Part shown: piece by piece, positions 36,856-44,141 of the stretch
Position numbering within the stretch: position 1 is the first letter of the stretch
Layout: each line of letters opens with the position of its first letter
Source of the DNA: Betaproteobacteria bacterium
GTDB lineage: Bacteria; Pseudomonadota; Gammaproteobacteria; Burkholderiales; Casimicrobiaceae
Direction of reading: 5' to 3'
Length of the DNA: 53,647 nucleotides
Assembly (NCBI GenBank): GCA_029884335.1
Contig: JAOUIA010000022.1
Span: 1-53,647, forward strand
Translations under genes and position numbers: made by a program
Notes under the pieces: generated by a model
What the model saw: the letters and a program-made list of their open reading frames with translations, nothing else
Told to the model about the DNA's origin: nothing
The model's database searches: none

Positions 36856-38124
<1,269 letters not shown>

Positions 38125-38288
38125 TCAAGCGCAGGGTCTTTCGGGTCCTGCCCCGCGGTCGGCGCCGGCCGGCCGTCCCGCGTTGAGAGGGGGGGCGCCC
38201 CTGCCGGTAAACCGTTTTAGCTCGCGCCGGGAACCCCCGGTGGCGTTTGCTACTCTGGGCATGCTTCCGCCGGAACAGGCTCCGGCGC

Positions 38289-38317
38289 CTTGACTCCGTC
38301 CTGCGTCGGCCCCAACT
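38289..38317 (+). promoter_or_regulatory. Candidate heat-shock (sigma-32) promoter of lon
   Basis: CTTGAC (38289-38294) and CCCCAACT (38310-38317) have the same 16-nt distance from CTTGAC to CCCA as the element before clpP. It lies 30 nt before the lon ATG. In E. coli both lon and clpP are sigma-32 genes, which supports the reading. The rest of the 223-bp gap after clpX shows only GC-rich hairpins. Confidence 0.4.
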
Positions 38318-38347
38318 GGGCAGCCAGGGCTCCTGCACTGGAACGAG

Positions 38348-40801
<2,454 letters not shown>

Positions 40802-40804
<3 letters not shown>

Positions 40805-41072
40805 GGCCTGTTCACGCTATGGCCGCGCGCGCGAGCGGGCCCTTGGGCGTGTCCATCGCGACGCTCGCCGCCGCGAAGACCGGGTGTCTTCGCAAGGCGA
40901 GCAACAATGAGGGGCGCGCCCAGGGGCCCGCTCCCTTCGGGTTGCGGCTGGAAAGGCCATGCGCGGTGTTGCGAAGCCTCGCCGGGTTCCCGACCCGCCT
41001 TCGGCTTCGCGCCTGGCGCATGGCCTTTCCAGCTTCGCAACGCGCACGTGTCCATAGCGTGAATAGGCCCTA
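40802..41072. mobile_element. MITE-like element with TA flanks and internal hairpins
   Basis: Terminal inverted repeats of 19 bp, 40804-40822 (GGGCCTGTTCACGCTATGG) and 41052-41070, differ at one base and are flanked by TA on each side, consistent with a TA target duplication (IS630/mariner or IS5-type ends). Inside are two large folds: 40833-40933 (17-bp arms with a second nested stem at 40863-40902) and 40947-41033 (perfect 18-bp arms, inner GCGAAGCC/GGCTTCGC and CGGGT/ACCCG). No transposase frame fits, so it would be non-autonomous. Confidence 0.7.
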
Positions 41073-43938: not shown

Positions 43939-44141
43939 TCATCCCCGCGTAGGCGGGGATCCAGCGTCTTTGCCCGTAGGCGGGGATCCAGCGTCTTTGC
44001 CCGTAGGCGGGGATCCAGCGTCTTTGCCCGTAGGCGGGGATCCAGCGTCATTGCCCTTAGGCGGGGATCCGGCGTCTTTGCCCCTAGGCGGGGATCCAGC
44101 GTCTCTGAACGACACTGGGCCCCCGCCTGCGCGGGGGCGAC
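43938..44141. repeat. Palindromic element with a 27-bp tandem expansion
   Basis: The left end (43938-43964) and right end (44115-44141) are 27-bp inverted repeats of each other, matching at about 23 positions, each itself palindromic (CCCCGCGTAGGCGGGG; CCCCCGCCTGCGCGGGGG). Between them a 27-bp unit (GTAGGCGGGGATCCAGCGTC plus TTTGCCC) repeats from 43949 six times, at 43949, 43976, 44003, 44030, 44057 and 44084; later copies are diverged. The ends match a family of small intergenic palindromes widespread in proteobacteria. No gene or spacer structure is present. Confidence 0.85.

Follow-up and report, generated by a model that had tools for sequence, protein, structure and literature searches.

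The 271-bp element that follows lon in this betaproteobacterial DNA is one copy of a widespread, protein-free family in which a shared folded core is combined with variable ends. Each of its two hairpins carries one copy of this folded core of ~54 nt, and the two copies are inverted relative to each other. Taken as a whole, the evidence makes it probable that the element is a non-autonomous miniature transposon that inserts at TA and holds two inverted ~54-nt folded cores between terminal repeats. The family has many copies, a YTAR target and an over-representation at stop codons, and its core covaries strongly and occurs with the same spacing in elements that have other ends. We found no report of the shared core or of this element in the open-access literature, where subscription papers are mostly missing.

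Structure of the element in the window

The window, the whole stretch of 53,647 nt that was analysed, contains the following features:

38348 to 40804, plus strand: lon gene, with CAC as its last codon just before the element's TAG
40802 to 41072, no strand assigned: whole element, 271 bp counting the TA at each end
40802 to 40833, plus strand: left terminal inverted repeat, whose TA plus G form the lon stop codon TAG
40833 to 40933, no strand assigned: first hairpin, outer arms 40833-40857 and 40909-40933
40856 to 40909, plus strand: core A, a diverged core copy, absent from the model training set
40933 to 40945, no strand assigned: centre, CCCTTCGGGTTGC, which separates the two hairpins
40947 to 41033, no strand assigned: second hairpin, outer arms 40947-40964 and 41016-41033, pairing 18/18
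40964 to 41017, minus strand: core B, a good core copy, among the 42 training sequences
41041 to 41072, minus strand: right terminal inverted repeat

The original prediction of 19-bp inverted ends (18 of 19 matching) with TA on both sides held up, as the 19-mer 3' of the left TA differed from the opposite end by one mismatch and direct reading placed TA at both ends. The full terminal arms (40802-40833 and 41041-41072, 32 nt) were 88% complementary, and the element's own ends read TAGGGCCTGTTMACRCTATG. Within the window, the 19-mer had three matches at ≤3 mismatches compared to 0.02 expected, one of them (29214) unrelated. The two predicted internal folds were also recovered, with outer arms of 25 nt pairing at 84% and of 18 nt pairing at 100%, and the RNA fold of the element reached -209.7 kcal/mol versus -131.0 (sd 5.1) for 200 dinucleotide shuffles (z -15.4). 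With the covariance model described below, core A scored 29.2 bits (E 3.3e-4 over the window), while the best match outside the element scored 16.4 bits; core B scored 49.4 bits, a score that is not independent because this copy is in the training set. No Rfam family reached its gathering score for the element, and sub-threshold matches to microRNA and SRP families were taken as chance.

Two other features of the window were noted. Tandem repeats of ~27 bp lie at ~43970-44110, downstream of a ppiD-like gene, and in one frame read as repeats of PVGGDPASL. On the strand opposite lon, an open frame of 914 codons (38057-40801, minus strand) was taken as an artefact of GC-rich DNA.

The stop codon of lon

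As predicted, the TAG stop of lon is formed where the left TA meets the element's first G. The further claim that insertion had set the last residue of Lon found no support when lon was compared among relatives. Thirty lon loci were fetched and 21 were readable including our own, giving 20 relatives, 15 of them of the same genus. Eighteen of the 20 also end in KH followed by the stop (TGA in 15, TAA in two and TAG in one), and the other two end in TH and AH, both with TGA; the last residue of Lon was probably not a product of the insertion. CAC-TA-ATCC is the probable empty site, present in exact form in none of the relatives read; one of them (G008) has CAC-TAA. At lon, the element would have entered a TAA stop (CAC-TA-A) and changed it to TAG, with the Lon protein unchanged.

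The position of the element directly after lon, together with its strong fold, could point to a lon-specific regulatory RNA or terminator that was retained at this site. We regard this as highly improbable, since the element's end was absent within ~150 bases after the lon stop in all 15 same-genus relatives and other copies of the element follow unrelated genes, and a lon-specific role was dropped as largely refuted by the relatives.

Copies, mobility and host range

The assembly from which the window comes (3.66 Mb, 120 contigs) contains eight copies of the element, six of 271 bp and two of 349-350 bp that contain an insert, plus a further solo end of 30 bp; the refuting outcome of the element having no second copy did not arise. 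All eight copies carry both cores according to the covariance model. A whole-element search of 61 genomes gave matches at E ≤1e-3 in 20, many of them short and possibly due to chance, and long or full copies in at least nine: our own, G007, G013, G015, G020, G021, G029, G031 and G032, the last counted on the strength of its ends.

The exact 20-base end motif occurred in at least 114 stretches of a genome collection, of which 80 were used for end pairing and alignment and the other 34 for core spacing. Among the matches listed, the hosts of those 80 were mostly beta- and gammaproteobacteria, including Thiomonas, Variovorax, Acidovorax, Dyella, Solimonas, Salinicola, Woeseiaceae and others, alongside a few hosts outside these groups, for example Desulfovibrio. 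At ≤2 mismatches the end 20-mer was present in 23 of the 23 genomes that hold 24 of those loci, and its backward control gave 0 in each. End pairs 263-291 bp apart (18-mer to 18-mer) were found at 27 of the 80 loci, shorter end pairs at 13 and one convincing end at 40. In an order-level sample, the exact motif occurred in 7 of 399 genomes (backward control 0), a patchy presence that is expected of a mobile element.

We aligned 52 full-length elements, of which 40 measure 268-272 bp, and 48 of 68 elements have a literal TA at each end. Several features of a MITE are present: terminal inverted repeats, a short target duplication, several copies at different sites, a length below 500 bp and no transposase gene, 271 bp being too short for one. 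This supports the original view of a MITE-like, non-autonomous element with a TA target. Carriage by phages or plasmids was rejected, since no viral contig contained the exact 20-mer and one Acidovorax copy matched 2 of 72,556 plasmid records, both of them Variovorax replicons of >1 Mb.

Several variants were seen among the copies. Two in our own genome (L004 and L005, on contigs C111 and C56) have a similar extra ~80 bp inside the second hairpin, and in a third (L006, on C7) ~107 bp within the second hairpin run in the opposite orientation to that in the other copies. Solo ends of ~20-40 bp occur at L160, L178, L185, L209 and C36:14560-14589 of our own genome, some of them just before a likely start codon, and by eye a ribosome-binding site may be provided by the one at L160. 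Two groups of loci, L155 and L159 and then L150, L183, L202 and L210, hold half elements with a single core and minimal copies of ~50 bp in which little remains besides the two ends.

A covarying core in each half

In the alignment of the 52 full-length elements, the ends are conserved along with a small number of inner blocks, and the stems vary. Each half of the element consists of GCAAGGCGC, a stem and loop, and GCAACGCCG, and the halves are mutually inverted. A letter search gave 106 candidate cores (the best per strand in 53 elements), of which a filter on position, length and score kept 65, each 52-56 nt long and 53-56 nt from its end; this strict filter was passed on both sides in just 19 elements. 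A covariance model trained on 42 hand-picked cores of the 65 then located both cores in 40 of the 52 full-length elements and one core in the remaining 12 (E ≤0.05, training sequences included). In 31 of 32 pairs the two core starts lay 105-110 apart; the remaining pair had 119.

All nine base pairs of the model had two-sided changes, and 88.3% of cells were paired. Covariation was 0.951, compared to 0.263 for shuffled and at most 0.180 for slid alignments, and a second set, with 79 distinct sequences among its 87 matches and leaning towards the model to which it was aligned, gave 1.000 versus 0.244 shuffled and at most 0.154 slid. The number of pairs with two-sided change was not above that of shuffles in either set, and the core sequences are related, so that covariation counts do not represent independent events. 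The two outer blocks also covary with one another, the third base of one with the seventh base of the other (p 8e-11 over 139 distinct but related sequences).

An excess of G-T over A-C cells is expected if one strand folds as RNA, and in the core these cells numbered 31 versus 3 in the first set and 54 versus 9 in the second. About half of this excess comes from a single base pair, which holds 29 of the 54 G-T cells; without it the count is 25 versus 9. By this measure the suggestion that an RNA copy is functional appears possible, given a covarying core in which G-U pairs far outnumber A-C. The folding could alternatively serve transposition as DNA, in the form of a cruciform or single strand, and the outer stems (G-T 55, A-C 65) and terminal pairs (G-T 30, A-C 54) do lack the bias. 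The RNA-type bias of the core hairpin speaks against this alternative, although RNA rules were used to predict the core structure and a mechanism using single-stranded DNA of one strand could give the same bias. On balance we consider a purely DNA role rather unlikely.

The same core with other ends

The model was run on 15 genomes, scoring 150 candidates per genome so that counts may be low, and had matches at E ≤0.1 in 12. Numbers ranged from 90 matches in Solimonas aquatica (G436), 53 in G433 and 29 in our own genome to single weak matches in G014, G040 and G079, where one or two single matches may be chance, and none at E ≤0.1 in G006, G163 and G264. We opened 20 regions from our own genome, G043, G439 and G436, plus one locus (L130) of G029. 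Among them are double-core elements of ~265-278 bp and single-core elements of ~144-164 bp with clearly different terminal repeats. End types, which were named by eye, include TAGAACCTATCTCACAATC and TAGGGAAGCTCTGCGTAAC in our own genome and TAGTGTAGTGTTTCACTCTG in Acidovorax; some, for example those starting TAGGGC(C/T)TGTT, are related to the ends of the window element.

Mean core identity was 0.713 within genomes for the same ends (104 pairs) and 0.574 for different ends (148 pairs), and between genomes it was 0.489 for the same ends (393 pairs) and 0.526 for different ends (1125 pairs), showing that ends predict core likeness poorly between genomes. The best core pairs across end types reached 0.91-0.94 (Solimonas, G043) and joined related end types. 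This identity pattern fits, with modest support from the sequences, a history in which ends changed within lineages.

These observations bear on whether the element is an ordinary MITE, that is, an internally deleted insertion sequence whose inside was kept by recent descent and has no function. Its non-coding nature, TA target, size variants, half elements and solo ends are all normal for MITEs. Recent descent, however, does not account well for inside positions that vary between taxa yet remain paired, for a core spacing held almost without exception across many hosts and several end types, or for an inside that is common to elements with other ends and absent from four related insertion-sequence loci (E ≤0.1). 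Since neutral decay would not preserve both blocks and the stem across different ends, an ordinary MITE is disfavoured and appears unlikely.

Target site and stop codons

Both flanks are present for 56 elements. C or T precedes the left end in all 56 of them, and A or G follows the right end in 53; 45 of the 48 elements with literal TA at both ends had a YTAR target. The stop codons TAA and TAG both fit within YTAR. In 38 of the 56 elements the longest abutting frame of at least 150 codons was in phase with the element's TAG, with a literal TAG in 37 of these and on both sides in six; in 11 such a long frame occurred in another phase only, and seven had none. At 257 YTAR control sites drawn from the same flanks of these 56 elements (the count including one-flank elements is 49 of 385), 37 were in stop phase, 142 in another phase and 78 without a long frame. 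Because the controls include coding sites, stop-phase sites were compared against sites without a long frame, and the elements differed from the controls at p 1.7e-9.

Long frames may be spurious in GC-rich DNA, so 20 frames (hand-picked from 68 with at least 60 codons and a literal TAG) were checked against Pfam. Seventeen matched a family, and several were complete or nearly complete to the C-terminus, among them YajQ/DUF520, a universal stress protein, archease, ribosome recycling factor and FlhB; three matched nothing in Pfam, two of them among the longest. Elements often sit on the stop codons of genes without truncating the protein. The stop-codon excess could stem from target choice or from selection against damage, and these data fit either.

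Candidate movers

Four insertion-sequence loci had ends like those of core-bearing elements. G015 contains a complete 836-bp IS5-type element (PF13340, PF01609) whose ends are of the TAGAACCTATCTC type, with one mismatch in 16 at each end. G029 contains a complete 1.6-kb IS1182-type element (PF05598, PF13751, PF01609) whose ends differ by one mismatch in 16 at each end from a TAGGAGCCTGTCGG element in the same genome. We take these to be IS5-type and IS1182-type from their Pfam domains. A PF01609 locus in G438 has two inverted ends near two Acidovorax types (2-3 mismatches in 16), and in G004 one end (one mismatch in 16 to a G043 type) lies near a PF13358 (IS630-type) gene. None of the four loci contains the core at E ≤0.1.

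The window element's own ends were sought by searching PF13358 and PF01609 in 13 genomes, with all 29 loci scanned, and PF01609 in 17 more genomes, with 30 loci taken from a longer match list. In these 59 transposase loci there was no convincing insertion sequence with the same ends, our own genome had no match to PF13358 or PF01609, and among the positions listed in 23 genomes no plus/minus pair of own ends lay 700-4000 bp apart. The full transposon with the same ends was thus not found in the loci and genomes sampled. The predicted IS630- or IS5-type character of the ends received indirect support only: other ends of core-sharing elements match IS5-type and IS1182-type insertion sequences and one such end type resembles the single end beside the IS630-type gene, while for the window element's own ends no such match was found.

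Five distant pairs of own ends with 2-4 mismatches at one end were seen (two at L140 and one each at L185, L203 and L210). The L210 pair, 2955 bp apart and the sole pair of the five inspected, has ordinary genes between its ends and was rejected. Also set aside were L304 and L317, lone or chance-like end matches with 2-3 mismatches in 16; L319, where an end with two mismatches is a remnant beside a transposase fragment; and L306, where an insertion sequence lies inside a remnant of a window-type element. Single TAGAACCTATCTC ends were seen at L132, L136 and L138 in loci with a PF01609 match, and by eye the IS630-type end at ~1358 of L118 also makes the TAG stop of an upstream oxidoreductase-like frame.

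Proposed mechanism

We suggest that transposases of TA-inserting insertion sequences move core-bearing elements in trans, and that the core lineage may have swapped ends more than once, which would mean that it used more than one transposase family. At its most speculative, the scheme would have transcription of the upstream gene yield a 3' untranslated region in which the core folds as RNA and might shield or process the mRNA end, with RNase III and RNase E as candidates. Two inverted cores would allow such a role to work in either orientation, and the RNA effects reported for Correia (RNase III) and ERIC (mRNA stability) make it plausible. The likeliest role to be guessed for the core is that of a processed or protective 3' end of the RNA.

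A broader reading is tentative, and we hold it as a conceivable extension rather than the expected one: a mobile 54-nt RNA module would borrow the ends of several TA-inserting families (IS5-type, IS1182-type and perhaps IS630-type), with Correia and many undescribed elements descending from it, and would survive as a 3'-end device. As a 3'-end processing or protecting RNA, it would cost the host little by landing at stop codons. If true, a small non-coding structure would outlive its transposase by switching ends, and host stop codons would serve a mobile element as landing sites.

Comparison with known elements

ERIC of enterobacteria is not known to have a transposase. Like the window element, ERIC has TA termini and a highly paired transcript, and it affects mRNA stability according to PMC2229807; ERIC measures 127 bp compared to 271 bp here, and the window element does not have the characters of ERIC. 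A likeness noted by eye was not significant in the one ERIC copy compared, which had 11 of 18 block positions at core spacing (reached by 1898 of 4000 shuffles), 13 of 18 at free spacing (257 of 4000) and no model match, and ERIC was rejected as a relative. REP and REPIN sequences resemble the element as palindromic repeats in many copies, but REPs are smaller, 20-40 bp according to PMC3733652, compared to 271 bp here.

RUP is thought to be moved in trans by IS630-Spn1 (PMC2229807), and the R0 and R2 MITEs of P. fluorescens by an insertion sequence (PMC2718517). Both are non-autonomous like the element, with a TA target in RUP, and both share ends with an insertion sequence, which here is true of core-bearing members with other ends. 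In contrast to RUP and R0/R2, the inside is here a covarying structure common to elements with different ends.

The closest comparison is with the Correia element (CREE/NEMIS), first described in the 1980s. Eight Correia loci were fetched and seven were tested with the model, leaving out one that is masked inside (L260). Two 107-bp copies matched at E 0.0054 and 0.026 over 56 kb, loci that lack such an element reached 0.5 at best, and five copies of 155-157 bp, with an extra 50 bp inside, gave no match at E ≤10. Each 107-bp copy had a block score of 16 of 18, reached by none of 4000 shuffles, with blocks and spacing chosen after the likeness was noticed. In G293, which has 241 forward and 244 reverse Correia end motifs, the model matched 10 times anywhere in the genome. 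The comparison supports the view that the 107-bp Neisseria Correia element has one core of a similar kind, CAAGGCG...GCAACGCCG with equal spacing; the likeness holds for the family consensus and the two 107-bp copies, whereas the window element's own cores have diverged.

Correia elements differ from the window element in their ends (TATAG[CT]GGATTAA) and in being 104-157 bp long (104-108 or 153-157) with one core, compared to 271 bp and two inverted cores. They lie mostly upstream of genes (PMC10969869), whereas window-type elements lie mostly at gene ends, and their literature describes an IHF site in the long forms and cutting by RNase III. Both have terminal repeats and TA termini, and according to PMC2649163 and PMC2229807 the mover of Correia is not determined; the former, from 2009, reports the element from Neisseria only. 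The covarying core shared across many beta- and gammaproteobacteria offers a new handle on this question, as some relatives of the element have ends that match intact insertion sequences, which become candidate movers.
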